Shown in pieces: positions 2,778 to 57,500 of a stretch of 64,000 bases of DNA. This stretch comes from Haliclystus octoradiatus (Eukaryota; Cnidaria; Staurozoa; Stauromedusae; Haliclystidae): positions 2,864,001-2,928,000 of the forward strand of contig OU744449.1 in NCBI GenBank assembly GCA_916610825.1. Reading direction: 5' to 3'. Each line of letters starts with the position of its first letter. Position 1 is the first letter of the stretch. The translations under genes were made by a program, and so were the position numbers. The notes below the pieces were generated by a model. It was not told the DNA's origin. It worked only from the letters and a program-made list of their open reading frames with translations, and ran no database searches.

Positions 2778-3489
2778 CTCGATAAGTTGTTAGTTTCCAC
2801 ATTTACAAATGCTGAATTACAAATTGTCTGTCTATTTCGGAAATTGCTTTCAATATGTACAAAATATGCTGATTGCTTGATTCTGGATTCGAGCGTTGTC
2901 TGATGAAGTTTGTCAAGTTGTTGATTTCGTTGACATCTTCGTTGGTTGGTGTTGATTTTGCCATCCACTAACAAGGGCAATACCTTTCCATTGGCGGAGA
3001 TGGTCATTACAAGCATATGACCAACTGACATTGTGCTTATTGAACCTGCATGGAATAAAACAAATGTTTAGGGATGATTTCATTTATGTTTGAAAAAAGT
3101 GATACATGTTTTTTAATGGCCTCTATCACTGTCATAGTAGTGATGGTTCATTTTGATTGACTTGTAACAAAGTTAAAATGAGAGGCAATAAATGAATTAA
3201 TTTTTATGTGATGGATGATGATGTTTTTGACAATGAAAATGAAAAAAGCCTGTAGGAAGGTATAGAAAGATGGCAAGATTGTTGAGTTCAAACAGACTAT
3301 TCTGGGAGAAAACAAAATACTGGATTCTAACAGAAAAAAAATCGGAGTTAAAATAAAGATATGTAGAGTGCAATATTACATCAGAGTTAACTAAAAAAAT
3401 TTATCAATAAAGAAGTTACTACTTACGTATTGAACGTGCAATGTTAATTTCATGAATACACTATAGCGTTGGAAGTAGATTGTCTTGCC
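2778..3489 (-). other. possible extra 3' exons downstream of the RepHel gene
   Basis: Two segments with plausible splice sites follow the GIY-YIG exon on the same strand: about 3427-3489 (acceptor TTTTCCAG, donor ATAC|GTAAGT) and 2778-3045 (acceptor CCATGCAG, donor CGAG|GTAAAC). The second is open for 85 codons in one frame, with no recognised motif. Their link to the helicase gene is inferred only from strand and spacing. Confidence 0.3.
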
Positions 3490-3576
3490 TGGAAAATAAC
3501 GTAATTTGTTAGGAAAAGATGTTCTGTTATTATTTCAATGGTGAACCATGCATTATTTATATTAAAACCTTAGTAC

Positions 3577-4023
3577 CTTGTTACTGACTTGAACATGATG
3601 GATGTTGGACAACTTGGATGGATGCACATTGATGGAATTAATAGGCACGATTATGATTGCTGCCGACAATGCTCCGTTGCTGAATTGAGTTTGCCAATCT
3701 GCTAATAGTTTGGTGGCGTTTGGGAAATTGTGGATATTTCCATTTCTCCAGTTCGTAATTAACGTGTAAACCTTCCATGGACGACACATCTGCAACCTGC
3801 CAAGCAGCGCTGTCTTCTCCTGGTGTAGGGTTAGAAACATGTTATTTGTTCTGCCGATCTTAAAGATGTTGTTGAAAGATTGACTTTGCAAAATATATAC
3901 TGCAGGCAAAGGTGGTATGATGAAATCATCTCGAAAGAAAGTTGCATGTCGATTATTCCTGAGTGATAGTTTAAATATCACTTCAGTGGACAGTGTAAAC
4001 ACTTGTGATGCAAGACTTGCAAT
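3577..4023 (-). pseudogene. GIY-YIG nuclease-like terminal exon of the RepHel gene
   Basis: This exon follows helicase motif VI. The upstream exon ends ACT CAT|GTGAGT and this one begins TTTCATTCAG|ATT GCA, so reading continues in phase 0 from helicase into this domain. The translation contains VYILQS, then FKIGRTNN about ten residues later, then TLHQEKT. This is the spacing and pattern of a GIY-YIG core (VYI... / .KIG.T.N). A tail with CRPWKVYTLITNW and about 60 further residues follows, and the donor is AACAAG|GTACTA. GIY-YIG domains are known from homing endonucleases and Penelope-like retroelements. I do not know this arrangement as a standard Helitron architecture. Catalytic competence is not shown. 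Confidence 0.6.
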
Positions 4024-5204
4024 CTGAATGAAAAATTTTGTGGATATTGAAAACATATTATATTGTTAGCATGTCAGTGCATATTTAATAAGGGGAAATA
4101 AGGTGAACTCACATGAGTGATAGCATCTTTGTTTGATTGGGAATCACCAACAAAGTACAAATCTTTTACGTGCCTTACCCGAGAAACAAGAACCAGCAGT
4201 TGTTCTCTTTCCCACAGATGAAACATGTGATCGAGAGTAGATAATTGAGTGGCAACTGCTGGCACTGTTTCACCAATGCAAGCGTGAATTGTATCACATA
4301 CATGGTATCTGTAATGGAATAATAAGAATTAATACTGACAGGCTAACATGGTTGAACTCATAGGTGGACGGTGATTTTACCTGAATGGAAGTTGTTTCCT
4401 GCGTGATATTGCATGATGGAAATAGTTGACAACGCCGTGAGAATATCTTGGTGCAAATGTTGCCACTCTGCCACCTTCAAATTTGACCTTGACGTTGTTA
4501 TCAATTGCTGAAAAACTTACAACTTGTACAACATCGCCTTGAGTGTATAAGACTCCAGCTGGTGTGCTGTTGTTAAAAGTTATTTTCAACTTTTGGCCAA
4601 CATAGATGAATAATTGTTTTGGCTCAAGGCATTGGTAATTGAGCTTTGAAATTACACTGGCTCTTGTTGTTGGTTGCCATTGACCTGGTGAAAACTCAAT
4701 TTCATCTTGCGATTCAAATGTAATTCCATTGTTTTGTTGCTTTGCCTGACTGATAACTTTGTCAGTGATAAAGGATTTTGCAGCTTTTGTCGACACTATT
4801 CGTAGCATATTGGAAGGAACATCCATGATGAAAACGTGCCTGCATTGTCAATAATGAGATCCGCAAGCTCAATGCACTGGGCTACATCCAGGTGCGACCT
4901 TAGCATGGAATTGATTTTTTTTAAATTAAGATCTGCTGCGCATCGGACCTTGAAAAATAAATAGATATCAAAATAATGTTAGCAATGTTGCTTTTGAAAT
5001 CAATTTAGATGTTTTTGGTTTGTGTAAATGCTTTCTAAAGGTGTACCTGCTCTTTCAACGGTATTACTTTGAAATTTGTGAAAACATGCTGACCGAGCCA
5101 TATATATGTCCCTACAAGTAAAGGCATTGAAATTGATATATTTAGATGAGACTTAATTTAGTTGAACTGGAAGATATATTGCTAAAATAGGGTAGTATGA
5201 TTAC

Positions 5205-5679
5205 CTGAATGGGCTGGAGCTGGCAATGATCTCCTGATGCAACGATGTACACACCACCAAAAGGCAATGTATTGCAATGTATCATTTTTAAGACTGAATC
5301 AATAACGGTTAACAATTCCGATGATAACATTCCAATTTCTTCGGTGAATAAATTCTTGATTGATTTTAGAGCGTGGAATTTTACTGGATTTGAAATCAGT
5401 GAACTGTAACTCTGTATTGATGTTTTCGGTACAGAATCAATTAAATTGTTGTTGACAACGATGTTGAATAGAAAACGGATGTGCTCACCACCTAAATTTC
5501 TAGCTCTATTTGCAGATGATGATGTAAGCATGCAATTTATGTTGCAACTGATGGCATGCAACAGTGTTATCAACAACAGTCGTGTCTTTCCTGCACCTGG
5601 TGGACCAACGAAGATATGTCCTCTTTGATTTGTGAGAGATGTATTCACGTGAATTTAATCATCTATGAGATTGATTGAC
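5205..5679 (-). pseudogene. helicase motor exon (Walker A/B, motif III) of the RepHel gene
   Basis: The exon encodes the N-terminal motor of a superfamily 1B, Pif1-like helicase. GPPGAGKTR is the nucleotide-binding P-loop. EEIGM sits where DEISM-like Walker B is usual. SGDHCQLQPI matches motif III (GDxxQLxPI). The donor is CCCATTCAG|GTAATC. The 5' part of the exon has a TGA or TAA in the candidate frames before GHIFVGPPG, which suggests a frame break close to the acceptor. Confidence 0.75.
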
Positions 5680-8045
5680 CTGAAAATGAATAAAAAATGT
5701 AATTATTAGAAGTAAAGTATTGTGAATTATTAATTGAAATAATAATGAGAATCATTTAATTTACTTACATTTGTGTGGAGTTTTCTTGCTCTAGTTTGGA
5801 CTCATTGGTTTGACCTGGAAATGTTCCAGGAGTGGCAACATACAATGTCGGTAATCCTTGTAATAGTGACTGCAATGGTGGCATGTTTGGAAGCTGTTCT
5901 TTCTGTAAAATAACTAAAAGGGTTTCTAAACGATTTTGCTGAAGTTCTTTTATTTTTTGTTGCAGGATTTCATTCAACTGCTGATCGTCAACAACTGGCG
6001 GCGGTAATTGGCACATCAGTATGCAGAAACTGAAAGCGCAATTCTGAAAGGTGAGAAAAGAAATAGCAAGAATAAGAAGGGTGATGAGGCACAAAATTGA
6101 TCAATGTATATGTAAATTCTTACGCTCATTTGCAAGAAGAAGGAATTTTTGAAACTCTTTCCTTTTTAAGGGTAAAAAATCCAATTGTTCTAGGATATAT
6201 CTTTTTAGCAGTACATCAATATCCTCACTGGTGACTAGTAATGCATCTGGTAGAAGGCGAGCTTGAAAGAAAACCTGCAATAAATGAATTACAAATTAGG
6301 ATTCAAATGTGTTTGATTTGTACGTACTGATACTATTTGATAAACTTACCTCAGTCATGTTATGAGAGTTGCAAAACAAATCCCATTCACTTTCATAGTG
6401 TCCCATGGTGAGAAGCAGATGGTTGAGAAAAACAGCAAGGTCATCAGGTGTAACATGGCTGAACACTACCACAGTTCTTCGATCTGTAGTGACGTCAACA
6501 TACTGAAGAAACATTGATCACCATTGCTGCAGTTCGTAATCAGTTTCATCTCTTAGAACTCGTAAGCTATACAAAAGATTTAACAGTTGCGTACGACCTA
6601 AGAAAATATTAGTGTGAGATGGATATCAGTTGAATGTTGATTACATATGTGCTTACTGATAAAGATTCAATAGCAATACTGACACACACCTGGTGTATTC
6701 CTTGGAACTACATTGATAAGAAATTGATATACATCGTCAATGTGACAGTAACGAATTCTAATCTAAAATGAGAGGATGGATAAGTAAAATTACAATATCC
6801 CCTATAATTTATTATGATAGTAATTCCATGTTGTTTAAATTGTTACCTGGCAACAGTATGCATCGATCCAAGGTGTTGTGTTAAATATATCCAGCGAAAG
6901 AGGATATTTGTTCAGCTTTTTTCTTGTGAAGCATTGAGCATATGTTTCCAACAGACTTATCATGCGCAACTCTGGAGGACGTAGTGAAAACGCCAATGTC
7001 TCATCTATGCAGTAGCTACCATTTAAATAATCATTGAGCATTGATATCTGTGAGGCAAATAAGTATGACGTAAATGATTTGAAATTTCATGAATGAAGTT
7101 GAAAAGGCTATGTATATGTAAAAGGTTACCTGTCCTTGGCTGTGTTGCCTCCATTGCGGTAGATGCGATCTTTTGAAATGGCAGTCAACTGGCCATTGTC
7201 GTCATGTGCAGATGCTGGAGATCTTGTGTTGTACTTTTTGATAAAATATCTTCTGTCTTTTGGTAGCGTATTAACATTAACAAAGTCAACAGTAGATTGC
7301 ATAAAATCTAGATCCAGCATATACCAAAGAACTTCGGTTAAACAGATTTCTCTTTGGAGCGATTGATGCTGGGATTCAACAAATTTTCTATGAACAATAA
7401 TGAATGTAACGAGAAGATTTATAAATAAAGTAGATTAAATGCTGTGAAAATGTTGTTCGTACAGCTACGTAAATGTTTCCTTGCTTACCTGTGAGTTTGA
7501 ATCTTGTTGTGGTCTAATGTTCTTGGCTGGGCATTGATTTGAGATTGGCCTCTGCGTTTAGAGATTGTTACCGAACGCATATCATTCACACCGCTGCAAT
7601 ATTTTGTCACGTATGAATGTAGAATTCTATGATCCATGACTTGAATGTTACTTGATGAACATAAAGATAAGAAATTCATTGGCTCTGTAGGGCTGAAGGT
7701 TTCACCTGGATGGGCAGGAATAAGGTACTTTATTGCCTTGAAGTGGTCGATCGGGTTGATGTCACCATTTAATGATTGAGTCGCCATAGTCCAACCTTAG
7801 CAATTTTTGTAGAAGTTCCTCAGTGTATATGGTTGGTCTTTCTCTTTCGGAATACTCGTTAGAAATAGGATGCTGAAACACTCGACATAGTGTATTGCCG
7901 AACTCATCAATTAATTTTTTACATCTGCTACCAGCTGTAATTAAATAATTGCATAAATCAAAATGATGTTAATAAATGAAAGATCACTTTACATAGATGA
8001 GTGAATAGCAGTGGCTTAATTGTTTTTTTTGTTTTTATGAATTAC

Positions 8046-8282
8046 CTTTGTCGCAGTCGTGCTGCTGCAATATGTCTGCTAATTCAATTTTTTTGTAAAG
8101 ATCACCCACATCTTCTATTAGCTCATGATCCAGGAGAAAGTCTATTCCTAATTTGGCCAAATCATGGGCTCGACATACAATTCTTTCGTGAGTGATGCTG
8201 CTAGAAATGGACACCCCTCCGTGGATGTGGGGCTTTCCTCCTTCGGCACCAGTTGACTGGAGTTCATAGCGATACCAAGCAC
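8046..8282 (-). pseudogene. HUH endonuclease exon of the RepHel gene
   Basis: The translation runs WYRYELQSTGAEGGKPHIHGG and continues to DILQQHDCDK. An E.Q..G..PH.H block is the signature of the Rep (HUH) nuclease of Helitrons, with the two histidines as metal ligands. The upstream exon ends ATT G|GTAATA and this one starts AG|GT GCT TGG, giving a clean phase-1 join. The downstream tyrosine motif (YVTKY) lies in the next exon. Confidence 0.75.
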
Positions 8283-9463
8283 CTTAAATTAAGTAGAAAC
8301 AAGATGAAACAAGGGATTTTTATATCAACCGATTGTTAAACTGAAAACTTCTAGCACATTCTCGTATAACTGTCCAAAACAATGGAATTTGTTAGCAGAT
8401 GAGTTGAGGGACCTTACTTTATTTTTTATTTGACATTTTTAAAGGTAAAGTAAAAACATTTTTATATTGTAAAGAATATGAATGAGAATGTTAATATAAA
8501 AATAACGTAAGTTTTAATCCATGTAAATATTTTTGACTTTAGAACAATCAACATCGAAATAGCGCCATACATATATCACTATCACTATTAATTATCATTA
8601 GTTATTACCAATAACATCGCCTATAAAGCCCTGTTCCTCGCTATGAATTCTCCATCGATAATGCCAATAAGAAGTTCGTTCCCATGATCTACAAAGAAGA
8701 TTGTTGTACGAGGACATAATGTGACGCAGCTCAAGGGGAGACTTATCACTGTAAGAAGAAGACATGCTATACTGTAAGAGAGTTCAAATATTTGACATTT
8801 AAATGGAATAACAGTAAATACTTACATGTAATGCCTCAAATGGCCATTCGAATTGGTTTTAACCCATAGGTTTCAAAATCGTTAGCTGTATCGGTGATAA
8901 AGTAGGCCCAACTGCCTTCATCTCGCTGCTGTGCACATAATTTTTTTGCTTGCTGCTTTGAGTCGATTTCACCAAATGGAAGGTGGTGTCCCTCTCCAGT
9001 AGATACAACGTTGGGGGCATTATTTTTATTGAGGTACTCCATCCCTCTTTTGATTATTACTGCTGCACTGTTGTTATTCAAAGCTGTGTTTGTTTTGACA
9101 GAGAAAGCCCAGTTTTGATATTGTTTATCATTTGATGTTAATAGAGACAGATCGTGAAGGCGAACTGCCAAATGTTCTTCAATGCTTCCCAGATGTGTGC
9201 TTGGCTGGAAATTTGGGCTATACATGGCTGATGGCATTGCACCTAAAACAGATCCGTTGACCTTAGAGAAGAAGCCGAGAATATATGAAATGGTATAATG
9301 TTATTATAGCAAAAATGTTAATGGAAGTATATTAATGATGAGATTGACGACATGACTTTTGAAATTGTATAAAAATGTGAAAATGTTCTGTAATATTTGG
9401 ACTTGCTAGTATATTGTAAAATTAGATTGATAGGTCTACTTATTCGTGCCTCTTAGTCCTCCT

Positions 9464-9645
9464 AGCCAGGGTGCGACAAAAGTAGGAATCCTGAATCCTA
9501 GATTCCGGAAGGTTAGAGGAAATTGTGAAGAAAATTAATATTTTCATGATTTATGTGTCAAACATCAACAAAAAATTTAGAGGAGAAGGTTGAAATGTCT
9601 GTAGGATTCCAGAAGGCTGAACCTTTTATCAGATGCTGTTCCTAG
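9464..9645 (+). repeat. family D MITE-like copy inside a RepHel intron
   Basis: The copy starts GGGTGCGACAAAAGTAGG and ends near CCTTTTATCAGATGC. The interior matches the other family D copies (TCAAACATCAACAAAAA, GATTCC.GAAGG). It sits between the first two RepHel exons, so it inserted after, or as part of, that locus. Confidence 0.6.
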
Positions 9646-10098
9646 CCAACCACTTTGTTACGGCAGATGATATTGAAAGTATATAAAATTTGACGTTATA
9701 CCAACCTCTCTGTGAAAGATTCGTGGTGCCACCACCGCCTCAGGAAAGAGAAGTGGTAACGATGTATGCTGGTTGATTGAAGAAAGATGCTGCATAATTT
9801 GGGCCGTATGGACTGGTTGTTTACCAGCACCAAAAGATGGAATGTGGCAGTTCAAGGTGTTGTTTAAAATAAAATGTCCTGATGTGGATGCAGATGTGTT
9901 TTCTAAAAACAATTTCATAAATGGGATGTTATAATAAGTTGAGAACCTTTTATCATTCATGAAGTATGAACCGAATGGTATGGTGTTATACGAAGCGCGC
10001 TATCATGAGATTTAATTCGAATGAATGAATCAATTGAGTTCGGTGCGTCCATATAACCCTAGCCTAAGCAATGAAAATCACTCCATTTAATCTATTTT

Positions 10099-11599: not shown

Positions 11600-12232
11600 C
11601 ATGAGTCCGAGCGTAGCGAAGCTAATTTTCTTTTGCGGTGGATATTTTCCGGCTGCCGGGATGTTGTTCTCAGAAGATAATGTTCCGTGCGTCCTTTGCG
11701 CATGCGTATATAAATAGTAAACATGGACATGTCCAAAATAAATCTTAAACAGTTTGTAAAAGAATTCATAGCATCGTAGATTGGATCAACTGTTTGGAAT
11801 ACATATAAGACAGAAACGATATTCAACATATGATATCAGTACATTCTTAATTTTATTCTGTGTTTGATTTATCGAAGCTTTTCAGCGACGTGGCCCAGCG
11901 TTTTCAATATTTGAGTATCGTGACATATATTTGTTCGCTTTTTCTATAAGTTTAGGAGCATGATTTGTTGTGGTATTTAGCGTCGTGAATCACTCATATA
12001 TAATGCTCTCACCTTCTAGCACTTTCATTTTAAGTTCTTTTATATATTCTACAATAAATTGATAAACAGAATTGTTATTATATGGTCAAGGAACAGGACC
12101 GTCCGTCGCAAATTGCATGTTGAACTAATGTGAGAGAAAAACGGACAACAGATAACGCATGCACAAAAGACGCACGGAACATTATCGCTAGTAATCAGGA
12201 TTCCGGCAGCCGGAACATTATCCACTTTGTTT
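11600..12232. mobile_element. inverted-repeat unit of about 630 bp
   Basis: The arm at about 11610-11720 and the arm at about 12155-12232 are imperfect inverted copies. Both contain GACGCACGGAACATTATC and CCGGCAGCCGG in opposite orientation, next to GCGCATGCG or GCATGC. The interior is AT-rich with no ORF of note. It may be a non-autonomous DNA transposon or an inverted pair of fragments. No target-site duplication was identified. Confidence 0.5.
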
Positions 12233-12373
12233 TTATTTTACAAATTTTAAATTTCAAAACAAATTTTTATGGAGAACATACAAAGGAGAGATTTACAAAT
12301 TATATTTATATTCAAATTAATTTTTTATTCTATTTATTTTTACTTAATATGAAGTTGATGTGGGTCCATCATT

Positions 12374-15300
12374 AGTTGATGGATCCTACCACATCTGTTA
12401 TGTTGGCATTTTGTAGGGTGTTAGTGAATGGTGTTCGCTTGATTGTTTTTGAACCCCGAATACACAAAATTGCAGATCTAACAAGGGCGGAGGACAATTT
12501 GTTTCTAAGCCAATTTTTTACAACGCTGAGATTATTGTCTTGTTTCTCTGCCAATTTTACAGATATCTCACTTATGAAGCGTTCAGTTTCTGGACTGCAG
12601 CCACCATACGCAGAAAAGATCAGAGGTGTGAAAAAACCTTGTTCAACTTCTATGATTCTTTTGTTGTACTTTTTTTTCCTGCGTTTTGAAATTTTGTTTG
12701 AGGTTTAGGTTTAGATTGGAAGGAGCAAAGGGATTGAACACCCTTACGTCAAAAAATGCTCTTTGACCTCTAATCCAAAAACCTCTAGCACAGATATCTA
12801 GGCGGGCTTCGTCTCCTGTTATTGTAGATGGTGTTAGATTTTCTCCTGTTAAAGGGGCAAGATGCGGCTCAATTGCAACATCTCTACAGGTTTCCTCTAA
12901 AACTTTCCCCAAGGTGTCTCTAATGTTGTCATGGCGTTGAAACATGTACCCCCCTTTAGGGCAGGATAGAGCATGATCGATGGTGTATTTTTTTCCACAT
13001 GGACAGTGTGAGGGGACATGCTTCATTGGCCAGCGATATCGAAGGAAAATTGCATCAAAAAATTCCCGCTTACTTGGAGAGAAAATTCTTTTGACTTCAA
13101 AGGTAAAGTTGTTAACCGATTTGATGACCCTTTCATACTAAGAAGCTGATTTGCACGAAGACTCATACTATTCATTCTCGCCTGTAGGTCTTCAAGTAGA
13201 GTTTGGCGGTTGATGTTTCTTGTGTTGATGACATGTTTAATTGACGATCTAAATTGAGTAATGTCTATGTTGCTCTCCTTACTTTGGTCTTTGATGCTGC
13301 TAGTTAATTGATCTGTTACTAGTCTGGAGTTGGTGCATTCTTCAGCAGAAAGGATAGAGAAAATTGGTAAAGCTAGGCCCCCCATTTTCACTGGTAAAGA
13401 TAGTAAATTTCTTTCAACCTGTGTGCAGACATGTCCATCGCAAATTGATGGGATGAAAAGAGTGTCAATGGCATGATCTAAAAAGGGAAGTTCAGTTTGA
13501 ACCTCTGGGATAGTTCTGAAGTGAAATGTTAGCGTATGACGAAATTCGCCAACAAAGGCAGTGTATGCAGCTTGGGGTTGACTCTTTGCAATCTGAGACA
13601 CGCCCACTATTTGTTCATACCATTTTCTTACTAGCTCCGAAGTGTATGGAGATGTTCCTTCTGTATTTCCAATAAATTCACCCAGATATTTTTGCCCGTT
13701 TAGTGTAGTATTGATTTGTGTTCCTTCAAGCAATGATTTGGCTATTTCAGCTTTCTCTGGAGATTTCACAATTAGCCATGACATTTTGGGGTTAGGATAG
13801 TATCCAAGTTTGGGACCATATTCTAGGATTTTATCCCTCCATATACGTAATTCGTTGAAAGTGCCTGCTCCTCCAAGATCATTAGCAAAGGCAGCATGGC
13901 GTACCTTTTTTGTTGGTAGTTGTCTAATAAACGATAACAATGGAGTTATAACAAGTAGACCGACATGGCCATCGGGTCTCCTTAAGTGGTCCCCTCTGCA
14001 GAAGCAATCTCATAGCCACCGGAAACAAACAATCAAGATGGTGCTTAATAGCAACTACGTTCATAAGTAGAAATCGGAGGGCATATGTATTTGATGTTGT
14101 GGAGAAGGACATTTCTATTAAGGGCATTGAAAGCGTTGCTGGCATCTACAAGCAATAACCCATCTGTTTCTTCTTCAGCAAAATATCAGACATTACGTGT
14201 ACAGCTGCTTCACAGCCTGCTGATTGTCCAGCACATAGTTGGAGATTACTTGCACTGGAGATAATGTCAGGTCTAGTAACAAGAATTTGGGCTTTACCTA
14301 TTATTCGACGTAATAACTCTCCAACACCTATTGGTTGTACTTCAGGATCTTTATCTAGTGGGATAAGGCGACATGCAGTATATGCCTCAAGGGATGATAC
14401 ACAATCATCACCGTCAGTGGAAAAGTGTTCTTGCTTGGAACATAATAGTCTTGCAAAAGCTGCGATGGTGCAGCGTAGCTCTTTCCCTGCCATACCAAAG
14501 CTCTTGGAGACAAGGATTCTTCACCAGCCATTAGCATCTAGACCTGATGGACCACATGAACCCTTTGTTTTTAAAGCTGATCTTGAGATAGAATCCTCAT
14601 CAATGTTATTGAACATAGCATTATCAACAAATGGGATGTCACCGCTGATTAGTATTGACTCATCTGCAGGTTTAGCTGCAGGGGGCTTTACCTTGACTTC
14701 AGCAATTGTTTCAGGAGTAAGTTTCAATATTCCTTTTGAGGTGGTGGTACTATCAAGCATTCTAAGTGCTGCATTAACTTTTCCCTGTATAATGTAATTG
14801 GCAAATGTTTTTGAAAGTTGCTCTTAAGTTTGAGACTGCTTCAGGGATGGAGGGCTTACGCGGGCTTCTTCCACAATGCTGTTAAAATCCCCATCAGCCC
14901 AGCTTACCAGTCTCCTCTATTTAGACTTTGACCGTGTTCTTTTGCTTTGGATCTGAAACTTTGTTTTTGTAACAGCAGAGCTGGCATTATTATTATAATT
15001 TTCATAACAATGTCTTTCATTTGAGTCCCACTATTCCAAAGGTTGAAAAGCCATTTCTGACACAAACTTCTTTCCGACAGCCCCACTTGCTAGCATGAAA
15101 ACGTTCTTACGCCAAAATACTATTTCCTCATAAATACAGTTGATTGAGTGTTTCAAATCTTCAAAGGATAACTGACCCCATATGAGAATCATTGTTTGTG
15201 AATTGTGATTGAATGTAATTTGTATTAATTATGAGTGATGATTGTTGAATAGCATCAATTCCTGCATTATTTGCAGGCATGGGAGCATTATTCGAGCTAG

Positions 15301-15770: not shown

Positions 15771-17871
15771 TAAATGATATATGTTAAGCTAGAATCAAAA
15801 TGTATAAAGAATCTGAAATGTCATTGCAGGGATTCCAAAATAGATGATATTTATAATATTATCCTGAACATTGTCATAGTAATAATAAAGAACTAGGTGC
15901 TTATGGCATAAATACGAATATTTGACGAATATAATGTCTCCAGTCCAACGTAATCGACTCTTTGATCCGGAACAATTTATTGCACCTTCATGCATGTTCT
16001 TGAATTAAGGCGCATAATTTGAACATTTAAACCTTCTTGGATCACATGATGGTTCGCCATATGTTATGTTTGGCTAGTGATTAAGTTGACATGATATAAC
16101 TAAAACATTTTAAATAGTGGATAAAGAATAACACTACGGTAAAAAACGGACATATTAAATACTTTTATGCCATTTATGAAGCCAGAACCAGTAAACTCTC
16201 TGCACAAAAAAATAAAAATAACCATTAAACAATCACTAAACAAACCATCAACGATCAGTTGATACGTATCAGAATTGTATAAGTAGTAAATGAAAAACTT
16301 TGTCATTGTTTACTGTTTAATAAAACCAAGATAATAACGGACATAACATACTTTTCTTTTATAAAACAAGTTTTTTAATTATTTTTACATTTTGTTTTGA
16401 TCGATTCATGTTAAAGTACAAACCCAGGTGAGGGTGCTTTTTTAAAAATTCAGAAAAAACTGGTAGGGTATATTTTTTTTTCAAAAATTCTGACTTGCAA
16501 ATAAAGGGAGGTAAGCTTCCACTTAAATATTGCCGCAATTACATAATTTACAAATACATATAGAAATTACGAGATACAAAAAACTTAACTTGGTAATTAA
16601 TTATAACTAATATATAAGATAACCTTCCTAATACTCTTTACTACATAGGAGTGTGAAAAAATAGTCAGTAATGATATACAATTTAGATTATTTTATTTCA
16701 TTTGTATGCTTTACGAGGAAAATTTTTTGAGGTATACATTCCAACATTTTATAAAAGAAAATTATGTTCTTTTTCCATCTAAGTTAGTTTTTTTGCTTAA
16801 ATGTTTTCTCGATTTTTTGGTAGTAGTAGTATGTAGTGTATTTGAGACACATAAACAGTTTGTTACATTATAGAAATTGATATTTATAGTTATTTACATT
16901 TTTTTACTTTTAATTATGTTGCTAATGCTTCTTGATGTACTGTAGTACTTTAGTAAGTATGTTTTTTCAATTCTCAATACAATACAAACGTAATTAAAAA
17001 TTAAACATTCATTATGTAACTAATTTATGATAAATTAGATTTTTGTTATGCCATCTCAATCTGTCCCTGCTATCTAATTTAAACAGTGTCAATCTATACC
17101 AATAGACATAGTATGCCAGCACAACTCTCTTTCAAGAATATTTTTATAAATATCATTTTATTCATGATTGTAAATTATCATTATTAATCTTAAGCTTGAC
17201 ACTGTAGAAGTGTAGATCACAATAGAGTCCGTAATAGAGTTCATTGTGGTTTTTATTGTAAGTTTATGCTGCTCTCAAAGACCTTCCAACATTGGCATCA
17301 AGATCTCCCGATGGTTATCTATATTCTCAACTCTACTGCATCAAAGATTGTCTATCCGTTATCTGTTTCCTATACGGCGTTTCCTTAAAGACTGGCATAC
17401 TACCAAAAATCTGGTAACTTGCGATTATTAATCCTATGTTAATCTGTTGACTTATTGTCAAGGTATAGCGATATGCTAAGCTAGTAAGTCATACATGCTT
17501 CTGATCTTATTTGTCCATTTTTTCCGAAAAAGGCGTGGCATTTTTACAGTTGGGTGCTTCAGTAACTCTGCAACACCCTCAAAATTGCACGAATTTTGAA
17601 ATTTTTCGTCTCACAATTGCCCGAAATTCAACCCATCATTTTCAGTCTGCCCCCCTTACGCACACCAGGAATTTAGGGAAGTGCACAGAGATCCCCACCG
17701 CTGAACCCCGGCTGAACCATGGCTAAACTGAACACACAATATGATGGCATTGTTCGTGAAAAGTTACAGCTGAACTGAGACCCTGGAGCCTGACGACCAT
17801 GTTTTGACGTGAAAGCATAATTGATATAGTCAATGTTTTGACTAAAGTAATTAATAATTTTTCAATTTATT
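15771..17871. other. non-coding stretch, no gene recognised
   Basis: This is AT-rich sequence with no recognised repeat ends and only short unsupported ORFs. It includes the upstream region of the MFS gene. I could not identify a promoter element. Confidence 0.5.
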
Positions 17872-19311
17872 ATGATTTCAAGAACATCTTCCCAAACTAG
17901 AAGAATTCTAACAAGTATTGTATATGGTTTACAAGTGTTTATAATTGGTTTTGATTTTAATATACGAAGAACACAACTGGTATTTTATTTAGAAGAGATA
18001 AACGCTAATAATATAGCATTCTATCAAGGTCTTATTACAGTTGCTAGTCAAGTTACTGGTGGAATTGCTGGTTTAATACTTGGTTATTTATTAGATAAAT
18101 ATGGCCATGCAAGGCGGTTAATATCTCTAGCTAATTTATGTGGATTTATTGGGATTTTTATATACAGTATTCCTACTTCACCCATTGTTATGCTTCTAAG
18201 CGAATTATTAACTGGTGTTAATGTTGGTATATTTAGTTTAATTACAGCTGAAGCTGCTCGTATGTATAATAAACATCAACTAACTAAAGCAATAGCTGCA
18301 ATTAACTTAGGTTTTACAAGTGGGTTATTAATTGGCCCACTAACAAATTTTATTTTAGTTCAAGTGAATTTTAATTATCATACATTTTATATTCATCCAA
18401 CGAATGCACCTGGATTTATTACCTGTATACTCCTTATTTTAGTGCAATTTTTTGTTTGGATGTTTTTAAATAATAGCGAAGAAATCATCAAATTCGATGA
18501 AAGTTCAAACGAAAGTTCAAGCGAAAACGAAAATAGCCTTTTGATCACACATAGAACTACAACAAAAGATAATAAAGCCACCATGCGTAGTAGTAATTCC
18601 ATCAAGCATGACACAATTGACAAAGATGAAAATATATCGTCCGTTTTATTATCTAAGCCAATAACTAATAAATTGAAATTACGTTTATTATTAACGAATC
18701 ATTTATTATTAATTTTATATTTTTGCACATTATTATGGATGGTTATATTAATATCGTTTGTAGCACTTTTACCATTAATTTCTGTAAAATGGCTTAATTT
18801 TACAGCACTTCAATTAAGTATTGTTTATATAATTGGTGGTTGTACATCAGTAATTATTAATATATTAATTGTAATATTTCATAATAAACAAAATGATATT
18901 ACTCCAATATATATATTAGTTATTATACAAATTGCTATTCCATTATTATTAATATGGATGTGGGAATTTTATACCATTGGAAAATATATTCATGTATTAT
19001 ATTATTTATGGATAATTCTTGGTAGTGCAACATGGCCATTAGAAAATGTTCTCGTTAGATCGATAGCATCAAAATTTGTTCCACTTGAAATACAAGGATT
19101 TGCTGAAGGATTAAGGATTATACCATTTACAATCGGATTAGTTATTGGTGGATTTTTTGTAACAGTATGGTTTAGTCATGTTGTTACTTGTTCAATAATT
19201 ATTACTTGTATGCAATTATTCGTTTTATTGATGTTAATATATAAAAGAAAATCATTTTCTCAACCAGAAAGAATGACTTTACCAATACGTGAACTTACTA
19301 ATACATCTTAA
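17872..19311 (+). CDS. intronless MFS transporter, MFSD8/CLN7-like
   Basis: The 479-residue protein has about twelve hydrophobic segments in two sets, separated by a hydrophilic Ser/Glu-rich loop at about residues 205-265. It belongs to the major facilitator superfamily. The first half has the loop-2/3 signature around GYLLDKYGHARR (residues 80-91), and a G-rich TM5 block (NLGFTSGLLIGP) follows. The HP.NAPGF segment before TM6 resembles lysosomal MFSD8-type and SPX-MFS proteins, so I infer an organellar or plasma-membrane solute carrier with unknown substrate. The start at 17872 is the first ATG of a fully open frame. Unlike its neighbours it has no introns and is very AT-rich, suggesting a retrocopy or an intron-poor family member. 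Its last 40 or so codons are copied again just downstream (see 19191-19464). Confidence 0.7.
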   Translation: MISRTSSQTRRILTSIVYGLQVFIIGFDFNIRRTQLVFYLEEINANNIAFYQGLITVASQVTGGIAGLILGYLLDKYGHARRLISLANLCGFIGIFIYSIPTSPIVMLLSELLTGVNVGIFSLITAEAARMYNKHQLTKAIAAINLGFTSGLLIGPLTNFILVQVNFNYHTFYIHPTNAPGFITCILLILVQFFVWMFLNNSEEIIKFDESSNESSSENENSLLITHRTTTKDNKATMRSSNSIKHDTIDKDENISSVLLSKPITNKLKLRLLLTNHLLLILYFCTLLWMVILISFVALLPLISVKWLNFTALQLSIVYIIGGCTSVIINILIVIFHNKQNDITPIYILVIIQIAIPLLLIWMWEFYTIGKYIHVLYYLWIILGSATWPLENVLVRSIASKFVPLEIQGFAEGLRIIPFTIGLVIGGFFVTVWFSHVVTCSIIITCMQLFVLLMLIYKRKSFSQPERMTLPIRELTNTS

Positions 19312-54500: not shown

Positions 54501-57500
54501 AAAGTAAAAAATTCAAATACAGCGCATATAAATGAAAACAAACTCATATCTCAACCAAATGCGATTAGTTACCCATTCGTGGTTGATGCTAAAACGCGCT
54601 GTTTCATGTCTCCCCGTTTGACTTCCCAGCAAAAAATGAGGTGGCTCTCCTCATCAACAGGAATGTATTTAAACATTTTATATTAAAAGATTCATCAAAG
54701 TAAAACCGTTGCAATGGCACCGTTCAAAATGGCAATTAAACACTTATTCCAAAATTAATTTAATCAAAAGAGGAATCGTAAAACGCATGTCGATCATTGT
54801 AAGCTGTACATTAAAATTTCTTGATAATTAGTTATTGTTGGTTATTGAAATTTAGGCAAACAACATGAAATGAAGCGATATATAACATAATAGAAGATAA
54901 TTTACATGGGTAATCAGGAACGCTCTTGTCCCATGTCTCCCCGGTCTCCCCTGGCTTAATTATCTGGTGTTTGCTTCAACTTTTTTCTGCTCCAGTAAAA
55001 CGATTGATAGGTCATAATAATACAACATATAAACTTACTTCTAGTATACAATATTTCCCTCCTTTTTTCTTTTTGAGCACATCTAATGCTGCAGGCTCAT
55101 ATCCTGGGGCAATAATTCCATCTGAAACCTGAAAACGCAATATAGGGCATTTGATTATAAATGTAGGCTAGAAATAAATCTCTTCAGAGTTCTTGTTAAG
55201 TCCTCTCATAGGAATCATATGATAATTGATAAAAAAAATTTCATATTTATGCAATATGGAATGGAAAAGAGGATTGTATAGCGTTCTATTGACAACTGCG
55301 ATGCGTAGTACTAGTGAGTGACAAGAAAAACATTAAAGAATGACAAGACGTCAAGACAGTATTACAGCCATTATAGCCATCTACACACTAGAGTAGGCTT
55401 TAAATGCTTCCCCTATATCACTGATCACTGAAGTGGTCAATTTTAGTCAGGTGACTGATTATAGAGGAGACAATTACATCAGGATTGAATTTACAATTTA
55501 CAATAGTATAATTACAAACCTCTCTGGAGATAATTTTTGCAGTAGGTAGATCGCACACATCAGACAATGCTACAAAATCACCAAATGATGACATCCGATC
55601 TGCACCTCTTGCTCTCGCATATGCCCTAGCCAATGGCGTCAATTGTTTATGCATATCATGAACCATACATAATTGTTCTTCTTCTTTAGTCATTTCAAGA
55701 CCAACTGCGGCACCAGCAGGGCTGACATGCTTGAACGAAGCTGCTGCTGGCATTTGTAATCCTGCTTTCAGCTCCTGTAAAGAGAAAATATTGAAAACTC
55801 AATTGGCTTGAATTTTGAAAAACTGACATCTTACTGAGAATTTACTCACCGGTAAAAGGGTATTGAATTGGGCAAATTCAGTAGATTTCAAAGTTAAGAT
55901 GTTTTTGGTAGTTTTGCAGTGGAATGAGAGGAACAATCTAAATTAAATTTCCGGGTGAACTACTGTAAAAAAAAGTATCCAATACAACTCCAGTATGTTT
56001 TCAGTAGGTTCAAAATTCATAGTGATTGGAGGAAGCGCTTAACATTTGAGTATTTTGTGCATGTGGTTTGAGTGTAAAATGATTGACCGAACCTCTTACA
56101 GATATTGCCATAATATGCATTTACAATAGCAATTAAACAATTATGCATAACATTTCTTGGTTCAACTAATTTGTTAAAACTGGCTTTAAACAGAAACTAA
56201 CAATTCAGTTTTCGGAGAAGACTCAATCCACCAGTGCTACGCTTTCCTCCCTTTACACCCAACATCAAAGTGACTAAGATCAATAGGGGAGAGCGGGGTG
56301 AATTGGAACAAATTTTCTTAAAAAAATTATTGCTCCAAAACGGCTCACGCAAAACTCACAATTTTGGTATCGATTTGTAGGAAATTGTCTGAAGTTTATA
56401 ATGCAAAATACCTGAATATTGTCAAATCAAAGTTGAAACAATGTTTAAAGGAAGAATGACATTTTTTCAAAACCGCGATTTTGCGAAAATGTGGGGTGAA
56501 ACGGAATGACCACAAATTTACCATTATTTCATCGAATTTGTTCAAATAAATTGAGTATCATAGCTATTGAGCCTTTAAAAATTGATATCAACAATAATAA
56601 ATTAGATAGTTAAAGAAACTTACTTCCAAATATTAATTTATAAGATTATTATTTTCCATTCAAAAAAATGCGTCTCCGTAAAACACGATAATATTTTCCC
56701 GTACTAGTATAATTTTTCAAATTTCAGTTATAATTGAGAGAATATGAGTAAGGTTAATCATTCAAATGGGTTTTAATTAGATTTAACCAATATAATATGA
56801 ATAAAACAACATTTAATTTCATGCAGTCCTTCGACAAAGTCGCTTTCCTTCCGAAGGTGTCAAATTCAAAGAAACCGCTCATGCAAATGTTTTGTTTACA
56901 TTATAATTCACACTGATTCACGAAGGAAATAATAAGTCAAAACAAGACAATACAAACTCATTAATTTTACGTTGAAAATAAAACAACAAAAAGATCAATG
57001 GTTCAGAGAAATAATACAAGGCTATTTACTAATGAAAAGAGGCAATTGAACCAATTTAATGGATTAATTTGAATGATTTCTTCTTGGTGTGAAATCAAAG
57101 GCGGAGCAACAACAAAGCAAAGCAGTGTGAAGCCAGACTGTGGTTGAAATGTTTCCCGCCGTGTTCCATTCAACCCCATCGTGAATCTTGCAACATAAAC
57201 ACTATTTACTAGAAAGTTTGTTGGAAAAGACAAAAATGACAACTGCCTACGTCATAACACGGAAATTCTCTACACAATGGTATGCAATAACACCTGATGC
57301 GTGAAGAAATGAAAATAAAATCAAACACGATGTGAAAAGCGAATGACTTGCATCACGCGTACAAATTTTCAAAGGCTTATAATATTTTATTTACTTTATG
57401 TATCGAAATGAAACTTTACACAATGTTTAGACTATTTAAGAACAATGTTCTGCTGCAATTTTGTAATTTTTGAGTCTTTAGAAGTTGTGTATTCTGATTC

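Follow-up and report, generated by a model that had tools for sequence, protein, structure and literature searches.

A Helitron-like element of Haliclystus octoradiatus whose C-terminal domain probably derives from GIY-YIG and is probably non-catalytic

In the 64,000-nucleotide stretch of Haliclystus octoradiatus DNA analysed here (the window), the minus strand from about 9906 to 3450 contains exons encoding the 3′ portion of a transposon protein of the Rep-helicase type. The sequence is apparently the 3′ part of a decayed, 5′-truncated copy of a Helitron-like transposon, and the element is probably a Helitron-like variant in which the C-terminal domain descends from GIY-YIG and is probably non-catalytic. 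We favor, with moderate confidence, a reading in which the copy comprises a Rep with the HUH motif and two tyrosines, a Pif1-like helicase, and an SLX1-type GIY-YIG-derived C-terminal domain (the tail) that does not cut and likely binds DNA junctions or a partner. The features of the copy are collected in Table 1.

Table 1 Features of the Helitron-like copy in the window
Feature	Position	Strand	Basis
Rep-side exons retained in the window copy	8609-9906	minus	spliced model
Rep exon, HUH motif (GGKPHIHGG)	8046-8282	minus	P-H-I-H-G invariant in alignment A3
Rep exon region, YVTKY (Y-x3-Y), frame break near 7780	7489-7934	minus	Y442 and Y446 invariant in A3 (three rows)
Conserved exons between Rep and helicase	5769-7387	minus	spliced model based on sequence conserved in C6 and C20
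Pif1-like helicase exons, Walker A GPPGAGKT, stop at 5655-5657	5047-5679	minus	Pfam PIF1 E=2.2e-10, main exon
Helicase middle exons, frame break near 4840 in the window copy	4381-4978	minus	
Helicase exon, motifs V-VI (TIHACIGET ... LWEREQLLVLVSRVR)	4113-4308	minus	spliced model; 38 genome loci
Exon with putative SLX1/GIY-YIG-derived domain	3577-4023	minus	open frame and splice sites; family profile matches SLX1 first
VYILQS; FKIGRTNN; RPW	3883-3900 (VYIL 3889-3900); 3841-3864; 3775-3783	minus	inside exon 3577-4023
Last exon, ARQSTSNAIVYS then stop, 13 codons	3450-3488	minus	acceptor 3489-3490 and stop

The helicase motif VI exon ends ACT CAT/GTGAGT at position 4113, and the next exon (the GIY-like exon) opens CAG/ATT GCA at 4023, in phase 0 on the minus strand (slashes mark exon boundaries). 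The same junction is present in the spliced models of two related families, C6 and C20 (one copy each), and a splice between the motif VI and GIY-like exons is predicted from this conservation. The phase-0 joining of the two exons at 4113/4023, proposed in a first-pass annotation of this DNA, is confirmed on the sequence, and the exon pair recurs at 35 of 38 helicase loci of the genome. The donor of the GIY-like exon is AAC AAG/GTACTA, at 3577, the same start as in that annotation. By eye, a short last exon like that of the window also lies 3′ of the GIY-like exon in other families. The window copy is disrupted in at least three places, by the stop at 5655-5657 and by the frame breaks near 4840 and near 7780. 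In addition, the N-terminal exons of the C6 and C20 families were not found in the window between 9906 and about 16,000, the limit of the search.

The tail is not peculiar to this copy. The 262-Mb genome to which the window belongs was searched with two helicase and two exon queries, and the resulting counts are lower bounds: at least 38 helicase-motif loci and at least 39 GIY-like exon loci. At 35 of the 38 helicase-motif loci a GIY-like exon lies downstream on the same strand, separated from the helicase by 74-290 nt at 34 loci and by 1612 nt at one; 4 of the 39 GIY-like exon loci have no adjoining helicase-motif match. Of the three remaining helicase loci, L065 has downstream a divergent, third version of the GIY-like exon, identified by eye, which brings the total to 36 of 38. 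Similarity is broken at L066 and L067, where inspection by eye of the 0.6 kb fetched shows no GIY-like exon. Therefore, on the question of whether other copies end at motif VI, which the first-pass annotation had raised against itself, the count speaks in its favor. It had also suggested a search for less decayed copies with the same domain order. Four near-identical C6-family copies at other places in the genome keep both the helicase-VI exon and the GIY-like exon open, the latter identical in sequence; three of them are alike over more than 25 kb and the fourth over 8.5 kb, with its 5′ side cut off. Spliced models with the same domain order as the window copy comprise 2,352 residues for C6 and 2,329 for C20 (one copy each). 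Both are rough: their starts are undefined, the C6 model includes two spurious 2-nt exons, and neither has the last exon. The exons of the different clades are 22-51% identical to the window's exon. The GIY-like tail is an old, standing trait of the lineage and no one-off capture.

The dN/dS ratio was determined for 11 exon pairs from related copies rather than from the broken window copy. It is 0.18 for C6/L028 (35 changes), 0.20 for L034/L036 (17 changes), 0.20 for L042/L050, where silent sites are near saturation (dS 1.67), and 0.29 for L034/L037, on 6 changes only. For three pairs within a single recent group (L042, L045, and L046) the ratio is 0.37-0.67, from 9-13 changes each; the four distant pairs are saturated. 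The low ratios suggest that the GIY-like exon is probably kept as protein, that is, under protein constraint in the related copies.

Single-sequence searches identify the tail poorly. Pfam T5orf172 matches six of ten exons (best E=0.0096) and Pfam GIY-YIG one of ten (E=0.097), all below the cut-off, and chance Pfam families score alike on the same exons (E 0.05-0.14). A genome scan with Pfam GIY-YIG gave 16 places, none of which, compared by eye, is an exon of this family. A family profile was built from ten exons picked from 41 matches, mostly full-length and open (alignment A2); its rows are dependent, two pairs being near-duplicates. Against 177,635 PDB sequences, the profile finds SLX1 first, with E=7.7e-4 (best single stretch 0.0049); SLX1 accounts for four of the six sequences listed, the three lower ones at 0.09-0.58. 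A profile of the five rows of clade A, to which the window's exon belongs, finds SLX1 with E=3.4e-4 (best stretch 0.0012), and its first four places are all SLX1. The best PDB match of a reversed eight-row control profile has E 1.6. With the four rows of clade B, SLX1 was not found in the PDB, and the best match (E=0.12) is an engineered protein. The clade-A alignment to SLX1 covers the GIY strand, the YIG strand, and RPW, with the right spacing between GIY and YIG; RPW is invariant in the ten exons and also present in SLX1. We read the relation to SLX1 as true but distant, and as carried by clade A. The tail domain is most likely derived from GIY-YIG. The first-pass annotation had named the lack of any GIY-YIG profile match as an argument against itself. 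This outcome was narrowly missed: the single-sequence Pfam matches lie below the cut-off and the genome scan hit none of these exons, and only the family profile is significant for SLX1.

An AlphaFold model of the window exon, from the single sequence, has a pLDDT of 30.7. A protein-database search with the ten-exon alignment gave 2054 word-sharing candidates, none with E<=1, and among 193 pattern matches in viral contigs there was no relative. Among phage records, 35 match, and the 20 matches listed all lie within the helicase part. A protein-database search with helicase plus tail gave one match, P0001, among 7995 candidates scored. P0001 (440 aa, ENA) is 38% identical to the helicase and shows no GIY-like part at its end.

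The catalytic residues of Candida glabrata SLX1 are given as Y14, Y26, R36, and E79 in the accessible text of PMC8599992. At the position of Y14, the ten exons read YYFYYFLLVI, with tyrosine in four and phenylalanine in two. At Y26 they read KKKKQQRRRK, with no tyrosine; at R36, the invariant arginine of the arginine helix, TKEEKKTTTS, with no arginine; and at His40 EEQQLLSSEA, with no histidine. The position of E79, the metal-binding glutamate, was placed by eye for the five clade-A rows, the clade-B rows lying outside the placement; it holds L in the window, V in C6, Q in C20, S in L031, and L in L034, hence glutamate in none of five. The C6 exon has one glutamate two residues before this position. 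In the SLX1 exon of the host genome, GVY, YIG, the arginine, and the histidine are all retained. The tail of the two common clades, A and B, thus lacks catalytic residues and is probably non-catalytic. Because these residues are missing, the first-pass proposal of two different DNA-cutting activities is unsupported for the window copy and for the two common clades.

A third lineage, seen at three loci (L065, L069, and L070), looks nearer to the canonical pattern. At the same place after the helicase it reads GVYVLRS...LYV, and in L065 an ungapped count by eye puts Tyr, Tyr, and Arg at the spacing that Y14, Y26, and R36 have in SLX1. The automatic alignment placed L065 only as far as the YIG-like strand, leaving its arginine unplaced, and in L069 and L070 the canonical pattern is partly lost. 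None of four third-lineage pieces matches the GIY-YIG families. A cutting ancestor of the tail is plausible from these sequences. An account that goes further seems to us unlikely: the lineage may once have had a working SLX1-like junction nuclease behind the helicase, joining an HUH nickase and a branched-DNA nuclease in one protein; the third lineage would still show Tyr/Tyr/Arg at one locus, and in the two clades that spread the domain would have become a module that binds junctions without cutting. The window also contains, at 2931-3045 on the minus strand, a remnant, FNKHNVSWSYACNDHLRQWKGIALVSGWQNQ, which follows an acceptor and is similar to the latter half of the GIY-like domain that L070 of the third lineage carries (E=0.02, genome search). 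It is situated downstream of the GIY-like exon, at a distance of only about 550 bp, and may belong to an older element on the same strand.

Three other readings of the tail have to be weighed. It could be an active second nuclease that, next to the HUH Rep, cuts target or donor DNA, as the tyrosines and phenylalanines at the Y14 site and the by-eye Tyr/Tyr/Arg of L065 would allow. However, tyrosine 26, arginine 36, and histidine 40 are kept in none of ten exons and glutamate 79 in none of five clade-A rows, the host SLX1 exon does keep its motifs, and the arginine of L065 is the one that the automatic alignment leaves unplaced; we regard this reading as very improbable. The likeness to GIY-YIG could instead be due to chance, the exon encoding an unrelated, lineage-specific C-terminal domain. 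The sub-threshold Pfam matches, the genome scan that hit none of these exons, the lack of a homologue among the 2054 word-sharing candidates, and the failure of clade B alone and of the third-lineage pieces to match SLX1 or GIY-YIG families would all be consistent with chance. They are opposed by the clade-A search, headed by four SLX1 sequences aligned on the GIY and YIG strands and RPW, by the reversed profile, which finds nothing below E=1.6, and by the GVYVLRS...LYV of the third lineage at the same position after the helicase, and chance appears quite unlikely to us. Finally, the host SLX1 gene could have been captured recently by one element, Helitrons being known to take up pieces of host genes (PMC6431247). 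We give this almost no credence: the domain is present in clades that have diverged to 22-51% identity with the window's exon, the element exons are much further from the canonical pattern than the host SLX1 exon is, and the 13-codon exon and stop that alone follow in the window are too short for a RING finger.

The Rep and helicase point to Helitrons by their motifs. P-H-I-H-G of the HUH motif (motif only) and Y442 and Y446 of Y-x3-Y are invariant across three families in A3. The corresponding residues of Helraiser, H593/H595 and Y727/Y731, were mutated and shown to be necessary, according to the accessible text of PMC4778049. From the second histidine to the first tyrosine there are 169 residues in A3 versus 132 in Helraiser. 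Pfam PIF1 matches with E 2.2e-10 for the window and 4.6e-11 for C6, and from the splicing we infer that the Pif1-like helicase is in the same protein as the Rep. In the PDB, the helicase matches plain PIF1 (3.6e-11) far above Helraiser (0.0087). Helitron_like_N (PF14214) matches two of three Rep sequences, with a marginal best E=0.022. Of the three profiles named in the first-pass annotation, PIF1 is found clearly, GIY-YIG remains sub-threshold, and Helitron_like_N is borderline. A genome scan with Helitron_like_N listed 54 places, 52 over the cut-off, so that clear Helitrons occur elsewhere in the genome; all 54 are more than 15 kb away from each of the 38 helicase loci. With the Rep alignment, the best PDB match has E=0.14 and is a protease inhibitor, and a PHROGs search gave no match.

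Ends of the Helitron type (5′-TC, CTRR-3′, a 3′ hairpin, and no target duplication) were sought in C6-family copies and in L033-L037, and no clear termini emerged. The three long C6-family copies remain similar beyond 25 kb. On their 3′ side (L010-L015, L059-L064), the gene is followed by tandem units, each about 2.2 kb long, and a palindrome lies at the same place but differs in sequence between copies, the flanks being alike. Downstream of the GIY-like exon at L033 and L037, similarity to L034 stops at the same 3′ point, and unlike hairpins follow.

These data leave room for a rival to Helitron membership, a separate HUH-Rep and Pif1 lineage that is convergent with Helitrons or split from them early. 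The marginal Helitron_like_N matches and their absence near the helicase loci, the higher rank of plain PIF1 over Helraiser, and the lack of clear Helitron termini argue for it; the domain order, the HUH motif, and the Y-x3-Y motif are as in Helitrons, with the difference in spacing noted above. We consider a separate lineage somewhat unlikely and Helitron membership, judged by motifs, likely, and 'Helitron-like' is the safe name. Of the Helitron lineage with a captured GIY-YIG nuclease proposed in the first-pass annotation, the domain, most likely GIY-YIG-derived, stands as an in-frame part of the Rep-helicase and a lineage trait; the Helitron class is likely by motifs, with a marginal profile match and no clear termini.

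The window has further features. Two arms of an inverted repeat, at 11644-11707 and 12155-12218, are 64 nt long, 80% complementary, and separated by 447 nt; both contain, by eye, a GC-rich palindrome, and together they look like a small non-autonomous element. ORFs at 12372-14520 on the minus strand have motifs of what we take to be a decayed reverse transcriptase; three of them were scanned against Pfam without a match. A single open frame of 486 aa at 17851-19311 on the plus strand matches MFS_1 (E=5.3e-28). An exon at 55418-55798 on the minus strand matches AICARFT_IMPCHas (E=6.1e-14) and probably belongs to a host gene.

For the Helitron-like element with a non-cutting tail, we propose the following mechanism. 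By analogy with Helraiser, the Rep would nick and rejoin single strands, and the helicase would unwind DNA and drive rolling-circle displacement. The tail would no longer cut and would act as a pseudo-nuclease, binding branched DNA, the junction of single- and double-stranded DNA, or a partner protein. In this way the helicase would be kept in place, either at the fork or at the ends of the element. The junction-binding role, given a non-cutting domain, is the weakest step, and we rate its chances a little below even. The idea is reasonable because SLX1 has known DNA-binding surfaces, described as DNA-binding patches in the accessible text of PMC8599992.

Extra protein domains reported for Helitrons include RPA, OTU, and AP endonuclease (PMC6431247, accessible part). 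Like the present element, Helentrons have an additional nuclease-derived domain on the Rep-helicase protein; however, theirs is an AP endonuclease, along with an OTU domain (PMC6431247), whereas that of the present element is GIY-YIG-derived and apparently non-catalytic. Penelope-like retroelements are likewise eukaryotic mobile elements with a GIY-YIG domain (PMC5718144), but they are reverse-transcriptase elements rather than Rep-helicase elements. In the literature covered, in part as accessible excerpts and with subscription journals and Repbase Reports outside the coverage, no paper describing a GIY-YIG-derived domain in a Helitron was found. Helitrons of the Helraiser type share with the present element a Rep with HUH and Y-x3-Y followed by an SF1/Pif1 helicase in one protein; the present element differs in its very divergent Rep, its many introns, and its SLX1/GIY-YIG-derived C-terminal domain. 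The profile aligns with SLX1 across GIY, YIG, the arginine helix, and RPW, but the element exons lack Tyr26, Arg36, and His40, clade A also lacks Glu79, and the C-terminal RING finger is missing; the short last exon of the window leaves no room for it, and the situation is similar, by eye, in other families.

To our knowledge, the role of the extra Helitron domains in rolling-circle transposition has been little tested. If our reading is true, the function of such a domain could be tested on this lineage, in which an SLX1-type pseudo-nuclease would be fixed behind the helicase. It raises the question of whether a branched-DNA-binding module helps a rolling-circle enzyme to find or finish the element ends. 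Rolling-circle transposons would then also join the eukaryotic mobile elements that have GIY-YIG-derived domains.
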